Source: an uncultured Leptolyngbyaceae cyanobacterium | GTDB taxonomy: Bacteria; Cyanobacteriota; Cyanobacteriia; Leptolyngbyales; Leptolyngbyaceae | Reading direction: 5' to 3' | Length of the DNA: 63,687 bases | NCBI GenBank assembly: GCA_938023035.1 | Contig: CALIDI010000025.1 | Coordinates: forward strand, 1-63,687 | The notes under the pieces: generated by a model | Databases searched by the model: none | What the model was told of the DNA's origin: nothing | Seen by the model: the letters and a program-made list of their open reading frames with translations, nothing else | Shown: in pieces, positions 5,320 through 53,763 of the stretch | Position numbering within the stretch: the first letter of the stretch is position 1 | Layout: the number at the start of each line of letters is the position of its first letter | Made by a program: the position numbers and the translations under genes

Positions 5320-5388
5320 GGTAACCAGTTTGTCGTCTTAGGGATACCCTAACCCATCCCTTTGACTTTGGCACAATCTGAAGCAATA

Positions 5389-5545
5389 GAGCCTGTCACC
5401 TTTGCAGACCCTCATCCCCCAGCCCCTGCTCCCAATTTAGGAGAAGGGGGGCCGAGCTATCTCAAAGTTTCGCTCCCAACTTGGGAGCGGGATTAGGCAA
5501 TCCGGACATACCAGAAAAGGGTGAGGGCAAAAGTGACATGCACCC
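5389..5545 (+). repeat. MITE-like element, copy 1 (long form)
   Basis: A 157-base element with ends GAGCCTGTCACCTTTGC and, read inward on the other strand, GGGTGCATGTCACTTTTGC. The two ends are imperfect inverted repeats sharing TGTCACyTTTGC and CCTCA. It contains an internal hairpin GCTCCCAACTTGGGAGC and an extra ~22-base block also present in the copy near 43.8 kb. No ORF is inside. The flanks are similar but not identical (GAAGCAATA before, TAAGCAAAA from the last base onward), which fits an old target duplication. Confidence 0.75.
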
Positions 5546-20738: not shown

Positions 20739-21181
20739 TTCTGTGTTCATTCAGCATTGACGGGTAACTGACTATCCTGAAAACTAGTTGGGGTTAAATT
20801 GTGAAGAGTTTTGCCCTGTCAAACGACTTCTGCCCAAGCACTCGCCAGCCGCTAGCAAAACCTTTAGGATTTGAGTGATAGCCTATGATTTCTGGGGCAA
20901 GGCGAGATCAGGGTTAATGCATAGAGCAGTCGTTATTCAAACAGTGTACTCATCCCTTGTTGAGTTGGAAACACTGTTAGCACAACGATGCCGCATTTAA
21001 AACTCGAAAAGAAAAATCCTTGGTGCTTCCGAGTTGCAAACTTTCTGAACAGTAGGCTGGTTGTCGCTCTGGTGTACTCAATCAAACAATGGCCACCATA
21101 ACCAAAGAGGAGAGTAACAGGAAACAGCGCTGAAATTGATCTTTGCTAATTGCTTATGCTTGATGGATGGCAGTTCTACTC
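20739..21181. other. Intergenic region before a MITE-like copy
   Basis: Nothing gene-like was recognised between the HAS-barrel gene and the MITE-like element. The last nine bases, GTTCTACTC (21173-21181), are repeated at 21317-21325 on the far side of the element. Confidence 0.5.
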
Positions 21182-21316
21182 GAGAGTATGTCAGTTTTGC
21201 AGGCCCTCATCCCCAGCTCTTTTCCTAGGTTGGAAGAAGAAGAGCCGAGCCATCCCAAGATCTCTCTCCTAAATTGGGAGAGAGATCTTGGGTGAGGACA
21301 AAAGTGGCATGCACCC
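21182..21316 (+). repeat. MITE-like element, copy 2 (short form) with 9-bp flanking direct repeat
   Basis: A 135-base element of the same family as the one near 5.4 kb, with inner end sequences TTTTGCAGGCCCTCATC and (other strand) GGGTGCATGCCACTTTTG, and an internal CTCTCCTAAATTGGGAGAG hairpin. It is bounded by a perfect 9-base direct repeat GTTCTACTC at 21173-21181 and 21317-21325, the signature of a target-site duplication. It ends 18 bases before the antiporter start codon, so any promoter there is inside or upstream of the element. Confidence 0.85.
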
Positions 21317-24239: not shown

Positions 24240-24249
24240 TCAACAGAAT

Positions 24250-24384
24250 GGGTACATGTCACTTTTGCCCTCACCTTAAATTCTGCTCCCAAATTGGGAG
24301 CGGCACTTTGAGATAGCTCGGCTCCCCTGCTTCCGGGTTGGGAGAAAGGGCTGGGGAATGAGAGCCTGCAAAGGTGACACGCTC
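24250..24384 (-). repeat. MITE-like element, copy 3 (short form) with 10-bp flanking direct repeat
   Basis: A 135-base copy in the opposite orientation, starting GGGTACATGTCACTTTTGCC and ending GCAAAGGTGACACGCTC. It has the internal hairpin GCTCCCAAATTGGGAGC. A perfect 10-base direct repeat TCAACAGAAT flanks it (24240-24249 and 24385-24394). It lies 62 bases upstream of glmS. Confidence 0.88.
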
Positions 24385-24410
24385 TCAACAGAATCGATTT
24401 TAATTCGGAG

Positions 24411-30732: not shown

Positions 30733-30845
30733 ATAGACAGGGCGCATCCCAGTTATGCAAGTTTGCCCTCATCCCCCTATCCCTTCTCCCAAAAAGGGAG
30801 AAGGGGGGCCAGATTGGAAGTCCCTCTCTAGTGACGTGCATCCTG
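30733..30845. repeat. Degenerate intergenic repeat related to the MITE-like family
   Basis: This contains GTTTGCCCTCATCCCC, an internal CTTCTCCC/GGGAGAAG hairpin and GTGACGTGCATCC near the other end, so parts match the family, but the overall alignment is loose. It lies between the cyclase and the PepSY-type gene. Confidence 0.45.
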
Positions 30846-37562: not shown

Positions 37563-37888
37563 AAGAATTCCTTTTAAGTTTAAGTCGGGAGTATGAGCGT
37601 GAAGGGGTACGAGGGATACTACCGTTGCCGTTTGGCCTGAAAAAGTCTGGGTTTATACCAGATAGATATGGTTTATCCCCATTGACCAGGGTGCAACGAT
37701 GGGTGAATCGAGCAGATTAGTAGACGAAGGCATCCGTCTGGCTACCCTTACTCCAACTGCTCTAACACCCTGGGAGAGGGGCTTTGAGCTGGCTCCCCTG
37801 CTCTTTTGATGGAAGCAGAGGCGAGGGGATGAGAGTGGCTGGGGCTAGGCCAGAAATTTCTGCCGGGCTGTACTGGCGCAAATTGCGC
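37563..37888. other. Intergenic region between the urate hydroxylase and uraH
   Basis: No gene. It contains degenerate repeat sequence (TGGGAGAGGGGCTTTGAG and a CATCCCC-like block, 37735-37835) of the general type seen elsewhere. It separates the urate hydroxylase gene from uraH, so the cluster may have two transcripts. Confidence 0.45.
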
Positions 37889-43755: not shown

Positions 43756-43914
43756 GGATACATGTCACTTTTGCCCTCACCCTTTTCTGGTACGCCCAGA
43801 TTGCTCTAATCCCTCTCCCAATGAGGAAGAGGGACTTTGAGATGGCTCGGCTCCCCTTCTTCTAAGGTTGGGAGAAAGGGCTGGGGGATGAGGGCCTGCA
43901 AAGGTGACAGGCTC
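43756..43914 (-). repeat. MITE-like element, copy 4 (long form)
   Basis: About 159 bases, beginning GGATACATGTCACTTTTGCC and ending GCAAAGGTGACAGGCTC, the same ends as copy 1 in opposite orientation. It shares with copy 1 an extra block absent from the short copies (TTCTGGTACGCCCAG here). Flanks show no perfect duplication. Confidence 0.8.
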
Positions 43915-44379
43915 TCACAGCTAGCTCCCCAGAAGAGCCAATTTAGTCTAGAATCGGCTCGACCAATGAAACTTAAAGCTCCATTAAGACCTCTAAGACA
44001 CGAGTTATAGACCAGCGATTCGTGGGCTAAACTAAATGAGCAACCATCTCCGTATCTAGGTTTAACTTTTGTCAACATTAGATACATTAAATAAGGAGAT
44101 GGCAAGTGTGAGGAGTTGTGTGTGTAACGTTAGGATGGATGTCGGTGTTGAACCTATCTACATCTGCACTTAAGTTCAGCCAGGAGGTAACCGCTTATCA
44201 CCCAGGCCTTTAGCGGTCATCTAGCGATTGGGACACTAATAATCTGAGGCTTTCGTTAAAGGCTTTGGGCACTAGCTGTTATTCCTCAAATCTAGGGTTT
44301 GGTTTGTGGTTCGTGTTTCATCGTTTGCCACTTCAAAATCTCAGTGATTGAATCAAGCTACTTTGAATCTTTGACTCTA

Positions 44380-52880: not shown

Positions 52881-53141
52881 TTACCGATGAGCGACAGAAA
52901 AAGTAGCCTCCGCTAATTTTCTCATTCTCCAAATAACCCAGAAAATTTGGCTTTCTTGAGGATGAGCTTGACTGATTTCCCACAACCCAGAAGCCCCTGC
53001 AAAGATAGCCAGACGGATGCCAGGATCAGCCAAGGTCGCTGCAAATAGCCAACTGAGAGCAGATAAGAGCCCCAAAGTGGTAGGGGGTGCAATCCTCTTT
53101 TGCAAGTCGCCCCACCCTGCAGCAAGGGTACAGCGCTCCAT
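52881..53141 (-). CDS. Possible small hydrophobic protein
   Basis: An 86-codon frame, convergent with aroB and 8 bases from its stop. The product has a hydrophobic core (TLGLLSALSWLFAATLA, LRLAIFAGASGLWEISQ) and ends MRKLAEATFSVAHR, which reads like a real protein. The start ATG at 53141 has no clear ribosome-binding site. I do not recognise the family, and a competing frame overlaps it; moderate to low support. Confidence 0.5.
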   Translation of the reverse strand: MERCTLAAGWGDLQKRIAPPTTLGLLSALSWLFAATLADPGIRLAIFAGASGLWEISQAHPQESQIFWVIWRMRKLAEATFSVAHR

Positions 53142-53763
53142 CCCCCAGAGCCTTCATTCATTTTGCGAGAAGCCTAGATTTAAAGTCCCTCTTCCTCCTT
53201 GGGAAGGGGATTTAGGGTGTAGCTTGCTTCCCGCAGAGTGGGTTACGAAACTGGGATGCACTCGGATAGGACGCTTCTTGCAGTGACAGTCACCCCTCAT
53301 TCCTTTTTTGGCAATTAGAGTAAACATGAAAAGAGGGTTTGTTCACCTCTTTCCCCCAAATCTCAGCGGCATTGTTCCGACTCGCGAACCTTAACCAAAT
53401 CTTTGACTCTAGCTCAGCAATGCCACCTAAATGTGCCATCTAAAAAAGTGGGCTTCGCAGCATCCAGTTGAGCCAAAATCTCTCAGGGATTAGGGAAAGC
53501 AGCGCTGTAGAAAGGGATGTCACTCCCTAAAAAGCTCTTTTAAGGAACGCAGTGATTTGCAGGAAATCGTTCAAAACGGAAAAGCCTAGGGCAACCTATG
53601 GGTTAGGGTGACTTAAGTGAAGTCGATAGAGTGTTGTACCCTTAACAGGGAAATCCCACTAGTGAGATCATGAAAGAAAGCATTACCCTTGACCGACTCA
53701 GGCTAGGTTTGTTGCTTTCGTTTGGCTACTGCTGCCATAAACTGCGTCTTCTCAGCTAAACGT
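53142..53763. other. Intergenic region upstream of the cyclase gene
   Basis: No gene was recognised. Degenerate CCCTCTTCCTCCTTGGG repeat sequence lies near 53180-53225. The in-frame TTG at 53722 is judged not to be the cyclase start. Confidence 0.5.

Follow-up and report, generated by a model that had tools for sequence, protein, structure and literature searches.

A high-copy MITE family in a Leptolyngbyaceae cyanobacterium, its likely ISKra4-type transposase partner, and a core also found between other ends

Introduction

Small repeated elements of cyanobacteria, palindromes present in many copies, were reportedly described by Elhai in 2008. The REP, or tagged palindromic repeats, of prokaryotes are likewise palindromes in many copies, as is the element studied here; according to the available part of PMC3733652 they measure 20–40 bp and carry other tags, whereas our element has defined ends and 8–9-bp target duplications. 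Cyanobacterial MITEs such as Nezha and a 187-nt element of Microcystis (PMC11448079, available in part) are, like ours, short, gene-less and multi-copy, with inverted ends, a stem-loop and target duplications of the length made by their partner. The Microcystis element differs in its ends and in its partner family, ISL3, and the available text makes no mention, for cyanobacterial MITEs, of a core placed between different ends, which is a feature of the element described below.

Among insertion sequences (IS), the closest system is the ISKra4 family (p-MULT 4, ISMich2 group; profile NF033572). In the part of Guerillot et al. 2014 available to us (PMC3942029), p-MULT elements have ends of 18–39 bp and make target duplications of 8 or 9 bp, and ISMich2 has two transposase ORFs in a -1 relation. 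Terminal inverted repeats of the form GGGNGCAT[GC]TCAC.. and duplications of 8–9 bp are common to this group and to our element, and the full-length relatives have a two-frame transposase. Our element itself, in contrast, has no transposase and resembles the IS in its ends alone, and we class it as a passenger outside the IS family.

The window, i.e. the whole stretch of DNA analysed (63,687 nucleotides), is one entire contig (C25) of a 4.75-Mb assembly with 62 contigs and 95.9% completeness, called G000 hereafter. A preliminary description, made from the window sequence, had interpreted the copies as a family of non-autonomous transposable elements with two subtypes, one long and one short. 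What is added here is a likely ISKra4 partner, further size variants and the presence of the core between other ends. The last point is the most novel; in other respects the family, an ISKra4-type MITE, adds a further case to a kind already known. A search of titles and abstract openings, mostly outside the subscription literature, found neither an ISKra4 MITE of cyanobacteria nor this core.

Results

Four copies in the window

The four copies listed in the preliminary description were all recovered with a covariance model, which set their limits as follows.

5387..5545, + strand: MITE copy 1, long form, 159 bp; 184.5 bits, model positions 1–160
Flanks of copy 1: target duplication TGAAGCAA/TTAAGCAA, 8 bp, 1 mismatch
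5495..5517, + strand: extra block of the long form in copy 1, ~23 bp; limits approximate, from alignment
21173..21181: left target duplication of copy 2, GTTCTACTC, 9 bp, exact
21182..21316, + strand: MITE copy 2, short form, 135 bp; 112 bits
21317..21325: right target duplication of copy 2, GTTCTACTC, 9 bp, exact
24242..24249: left target duplication of copy 3, AACAGAAT, 8 bp, exact
24250..24386, - strand: MITE copy 3, short form, 137 bp; 131.9 bits
24387..24394: right target duplication of copy 3, AACAGAAT, 8 bp, exact
43756..43916, - strand: MITE copy 4, long form, 161 bp; 185.8 bits
43785..43807, - strand: extra block of the long form in copy 4, ~23 bp; limits approximate

Copies 1 and 2 are thus oriented opposite to copies 3 and 4. 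If copy 3 is taken as one base shorter, its duplication becomes 9 bp long (CAACAGAAT); that of copy 4 has decayed (3 mismatches in 9). Copy 3 lies upstream of glmS (TIGR01135 match, 826.4 bits), the start codon of which (24447) is 60 bp beyond the end of the element.

Alignment of the copies and the genome consensus agreed with the earlier reading of the ends as imperfect inverted repeats (GAGAGCATGTCACCTTTGC and GGGTGCATGTCACTTTTGC, 19 bp). The TCCCAA-TTGGGA hairpin reported inside the element was found, together with a second one, and the block common to copies 1 and 4 was slightly longer than the ~22 bases first estimated. A length of exactly 135 bases had been given for copies 2 and 3; it holds for copy 2, but not for copy 3, which has the 137 bp of the short-form consensus. 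The copies had been said to contain no ORF, and their longest stop-free stretches, of 44–52 aa with open ends, leave no space for a transposase. At up to 3 mismatches, RCATGTCACTTTTGC had 12 matches in the window against 3.68 expected (none of 100 shuffles reached 12), eight of them being the ends of the four copies. For GCCCTCATCCCCCAGCCC, 4 matches were found against 0.06 expected, three in copies 1, 3 and 4 and the fourth, at 30765, in a decayed relative.

A genome-wide family with fixed ends

The covariance model was built from 32 copies, and the best 150 of 2533 candidates in G000 were scored. At least 150 copies are present, so that the term "four-copy family" is right for the window and wrong for the genome. 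The ends coincide: 149 of the 150 copies extend over all 160 model positions. Independently of the model, the end pattern occurs at 152 places (87+65) in the whole genome, versus 0 for a reversed control.

Exactly matching flanks among the 150 copies were found for 6 bp once, 7 bp never, 8 bp 21 times, 9 bp 20 times and 10 bp never, i.e. 41 copies have exact duplications of 8 or 9 bp, while shuffled flank pairs gave a mean of 0.0 at both lengths. This excess proves insertion and fixes the ends of the element. Many copies with the same ends, terminal inverted repeats, target duplications of fixed length and no transposase gene: the element is a genuine MITE family of high copy number.

The 150 scored copies span 103–208 bp. 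Most fall into a long class (73 copies, 156–162 bp) and a short class (47 copies, 134–139 bp), which, with the exact duplications, bears out the two subtypes first proposed; 10 are extra-long (177–191 bp) and 20 belong to none of these. A longer second hairpin is common to about half of the extra-long copies, the remainder being mixed. Divergence from the respective consensus is 0.117 for long, 0.112 for short and about 20% for extra-long copies. In a crude test limited to ORFs of at least 150 aa, three of 149 copies interrupted an ORF (one copy with a short flank was omitted), as against 270 of 400 random positions, all taken from the window.

Full-length ISKra4-type elements with the same kind of ends

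A full-length IS with the same ends had been suggested as one of the things to look for. Such elements do exist in other cyanobacteria, where they belong to the ISKra4 family and have ends nearly identical to those of the MITE; in G000 itself a transposase relic was found. Scans of viral contigs for the MITE ends returned seven loci, of which six were judged chance matches and one, L056, a real IS of 1197 bp with ends GGGAGCATCTCA and an NF033572 match at 2.7e-73. This ISKra4-type IS, on an IMG/VR contig (9965–11161), has two overlapping frames and is flanked by ATGGCTCA(G); the contig is a possible viral vehicle for these ends.

A search for such ends across the class gave a match in 22 of 388 genomes. 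It yielded one element present in two loci (L247/L257), 1217 bp long, with GGGAGCATGTCACCTTTGC at both ends and an 8-bp duplication, GTATACCC. Its ends agree at 18 of 19 positions with one end of the MITE and at 17 of 19 with the other, and its transposase scores 274.9 bits with NF033572 (cut-off 205). In L231 the ends are again of this kind and the second frame looks intact (273.7 bits), but no duplication flanks the element; in its near twin, L233, a duplication of 9 bp is present and the transposase frame is split. The ORF pairs of L056, L257 and L231 are all three in a -1 relation, as described for ISMich2; a -1 frameshift would join the two frames.

NF033572 matched 27 of 39 genomes, G000 included, 16 of them above the cut-off. 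Ten of 30 such loci had inverted ends of the MITE kind with exact flanking matches of 8–10 bp, the borders being uncertain by 1; examples are GGGAGCATCTCACCTTTGC (L072), GGGTGCATGTCACCTTC (L066) and GGGAGCATGTCAGCTTTGC (L071). The place of L072, also recovered as L241/L255, holds an element of 1221 bp with a 9-bp duplication. The other 20 loci, many of them fragments, showed no convincing ends of the MITE kind with a duplication.

Agreement between partner and MITE, judged by eye, covers about the first 19 bases of the 30-base ends compared. Since the likeness stops there, an origin of the MITE by internal deletion of such an IS is unsupported. The closest end match was found elsewhere in the class, in other families. 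Within G015, a genome from another genus of the same family, six of eight ISKra4 loci gave ends, in which the likeness to the MITE covers no more than roughly the first 13–16 bases.

Search for a partner in G000

No intact partner was seen in G000. Two NF033572 matches were counted there, and the one transposase relic (C5:28293–28661) has 51% identity to the L257 protein and three TAG codons. For two end patterns, the first 100 matches listed of each contained no facing pair with a spacing of 292–2077 bp; those spaced by 2.1, 2.3 and 2.9 kb were interpreted as adjacent copies. At 95.9% completeness, and with contigs that tend to break at repeats, the assembly may have missed a partner. A diverged element start, GGGTGCATCCCACTTTTGC, with an alternative tail, GTATAGCTTGCTTCCTGCAGGGTGGGTGACGAAAC, lies some 600 bp upstream of the relic (positions 518–700 of locus L227, contig C5); tails resembling the latter also occur in L214 and L216.

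Two other genomes, G026 and G028, hold MITEs of this kind and have no NF033572 match. In G026, among the first 100 matches listed and by eye, no end pair was found at 0.8–2 kb. The MITE population of that genome is large and homogeneous, with 83 + 84 places at up to 2 mismatches and ends GGGAGCATCTCACTTTTG; many places are near contig starts.

Distribution among genera

At E values up to 1e-6, the covariance model matches 26 of the 42 genomes of the family, G000 included; several of the weaker matches inspected were different MITEs with a similar core. G001, the other genome of the genus of G000, had no match. G015, a single-contig genome, has many short-form copies. The 25 copies examined there diverge from their consensus by 2.9% and 20 have exact duplications; 9 copies of G197 diverge by 3.4% and 7 have exact duplications. 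Both sets were taken from the best-scoring matches and are therefore biased towards similarity. A third assembly, M55_K2018_004, has four short-form elements, 4–10% from consensus.

The short-form consensus of G000 is identical to that of G015 at 137 of 137 positions, and that of G197 differs at 3 positions. The DNA identity of glmS to G000 is 71–78% in G015 and G197 and 76% in G001. As the consensus is identical although glmS is so diverged, horizontal transfer is the simplest reading: the short form, or its source, has probably spread horizontally.

A core found between other ends

The centre of the MITE is a palindrome of ~99 bp, delimited by GCCCTCATCCCC..TAGGGTGAGGGC, with an outer stem GCCCTCA/TGAGGGC around the two hairpins. 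ISKra4-type ends around it come in two flavours, GGGAGCAT[GC]TCAC and GAGTGCATCCCA. In loci from other genomes and from plasmids the core was found between other ends, in ten loci of about nine kinds, with 78–96% identity to the core consensus (gaps not counted):

Ends TATTAACCTGGCA: L270 and L332/L346 of a Kovacikia plasmid, identical in sequence and hence one insertion; core identity (L332) 91.6%
Ends TTGCAAAAGTCC: L268; 95.8%
Ends GGCGTTGCTGAAT: L274, exact 8-bp duplication; 87.2%
Ends TAGGACTTACGCA: L343; 79.4%
Ends TGTTACGCGAGAGTTTCTAAG: L339; 78.4%
Ends GCTACAGAT: L269; 86.0%
Ends GAATTAAATAA: L272; 82.8%
Ends TGAGAATTTTG: L342; 85.1%
Ends of the TGTCAACTTAA type: L338, 84.6%, and L273, 84.9%

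Most of these end kinds are represented by a single locus. Their inverted repeats were reached by none of 200 letter shuffles, except in L272 (one shuffle). L343 has TAAAT on both flanks (5 bp), and a 7-bp match at another offset. The shuffle test was applied to 59 core elements in all, six of them from the window, and in 16 cases the inverted repeats were matched or exceeded by more than 20 of 200 shuffles. ISKra4-type ends overlooked by the test are present in at least four of the 16, namely two window copies, L034 and L264; the rest, e.g. L276, L277, L334, L335, L337, L340 and L341, give no support for core-sharing.

Insertion of the core as a unit with its own duplication was considered and rejected: direct duplications within 3 bp of the borders reached 5 bp once and 4 bp five times among 60 core matches, and never 6 bp or more. 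Two scans of viral contigs for the other end kinds gave no convincing full-length IS among the matches listed. Those matches did include elements of 93–104 bp on at least four viral contigs (L350, L366, L370 and L385), each with a 5-bp duplication and ends of the TAGGACTTACGCA kind.

Sixteen records of the plasmid collection matched the core, and all bear cyanobacterial names. A longer query with the L339 core also matched Azospirillum and Cupriavidus, in pieces of 19–22% of the query, so that part of the hairpin motif extends beyond cyanobacteria. On three Pseudanabaena galeata CCNP1313 plasmids (L337, L340, L341), the core is contained in annotated protein genes or overlaps them, as if translated; these encode a DNA methyltransferase, a DUF559 protein and a 3'-5' exonuclease, and two of the three plasmids have several core places each.

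The window itself contains the decayed relative mentioned above (30740–30843), the fifth of the set. Its left end, GGGCGCATCCCAGTTATGCAA, is of the other ISKra4 flavour, its core starts as in the MITE, and its right end resembles the first flavour. Weaker core matches with other flanks occur at 625–702, 37746–37834 and 53138–53220 (E 1.7e-8 to 1.1e-7), the last with flanks like GGGTGCAATCCTCTTTTGCAAG and GGGATGCACTC.

Discussion

The repeat of the window is very probably a high-copy, gene-less MITE served by a transposase of the ISKra4 family. Such an enzyme (prokaryotic Mutator-like p-MULT 4, ISMich2-like, two-frame) would recognise the MITE ends in trans and move the element, mostly to sites between genes, with target duplications of 8 or 9 bp. 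We infer this mobilisation from the resemblance of the ends and the equal duplication lengths of the full-length elements. The age of the copies agrees with it: those of G000 have about 11% divergence and exact duplications in 41 of 150 cases, those of G015 2.9% and 20 of 25.

That a transposase of a different family moves the MITE, the similar ends and 8–9-bp duplications being coincidental, is very improbable. It would fit the lack of a visible intact ISKra4 partner in G000 and the MITEs of G026 and G028, genomes that NF033572 does not match, and there is a precedent in the 187-nt Microcystis MITE, attributed to ISL3-family elements with 8-nt duplications in the available part of PMC11448079. 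However, the ISL3 ends of that partner, GGCTCTTCG, as given there, differ from the MITE ends, and every full-length element found with the latter (L056, L257, L231 and the loci of the family search) has an ISKra4 transposase; a mixture of 8 and 9 bp is also what the available text of PMC3942029 reports for the ISKra4/p-MULT group. We give slightly less credit still to the view that the repeat is kept for a hairpin function (terminator, RNA or chromosome signal) and not as a transposon. The DNA of some copies folds well (z of -7.0 for the L259 core and -5.4 for copy 2, but -1.8 for copy 3), genes are avoided, and standard core pairs fill 96.6% of cells in 26 sequences, versus 49–70% when slid. 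Yet with the 3' letters redealt they still fill 95.6%, eight of 11 double changes fall on a single U-A/C-G pair, and RNAalifold finds no net covariation in the G000 copies (term 0.27 kcal/mol). Selection against insertions in genes explains gene avoidance equally well, and exact target duplications prove that the MITE has moved. No Rfam family reached its gathering score in the window, and with the weak covariation this led us to discard the terminator or RNA reading. ISKra4-driven movement of a MITE is thus the reading that we retain.

How the two main forms are related is less clear. The long form may have arisen in G000 from the short one, or the reverse, by simple local insertion or deletion, a scenario towards which we lean slightly less than away. 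In its favour, a search of 388 genomes for the exact block, with up to 3 mismatches allowed, gave 72 places in G000 and a single one in just one other genome, and the copies examined in G015 (25), G197 (9) and M55_K2018_004 (4) are all short, those of G015 and G197 having been picked from matches of about 137 bp, which favours the short form. On the other hand, divergence from the respective consensus is equal in the long and the short copies, and diverged versions of the block, recognised by eye, occupy the corresponding position in L267, L269, L322 and L039 of other genomes. Because of the latter, block-bearing cores may be older than a local novelty and form an old lineage.

The ~99-bp core could be a cargo module of cyanobacteria that moves from one transposon to another, flanked by the ends of several transposase families without relation to one another; MITEs would then evolve by exchanging ends around a conserved centre. 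On present evidence from sequence comparison we are evenly divided on this proposal, having at first slightly favoured it; the change followed a recheck of the L343 duplication and of the shuffle-test counts.

An abundant repeat, found in this cyanobacterium and in its relatives, can now be assigned a likely transposase partner. In G000 the family seems to be stranded or inactive, judging from the age of its copies and the lack of a visible partner. Multiplication of one and the same 137-bp element took place separately in different genera: its copies are old and apparently stranded in G000 and young in G015. If core-sharing is true, it would become testable whether MITEs are just decayed insertion sequences, or whether a passenger may outlive its transposase by acquiring new ends.
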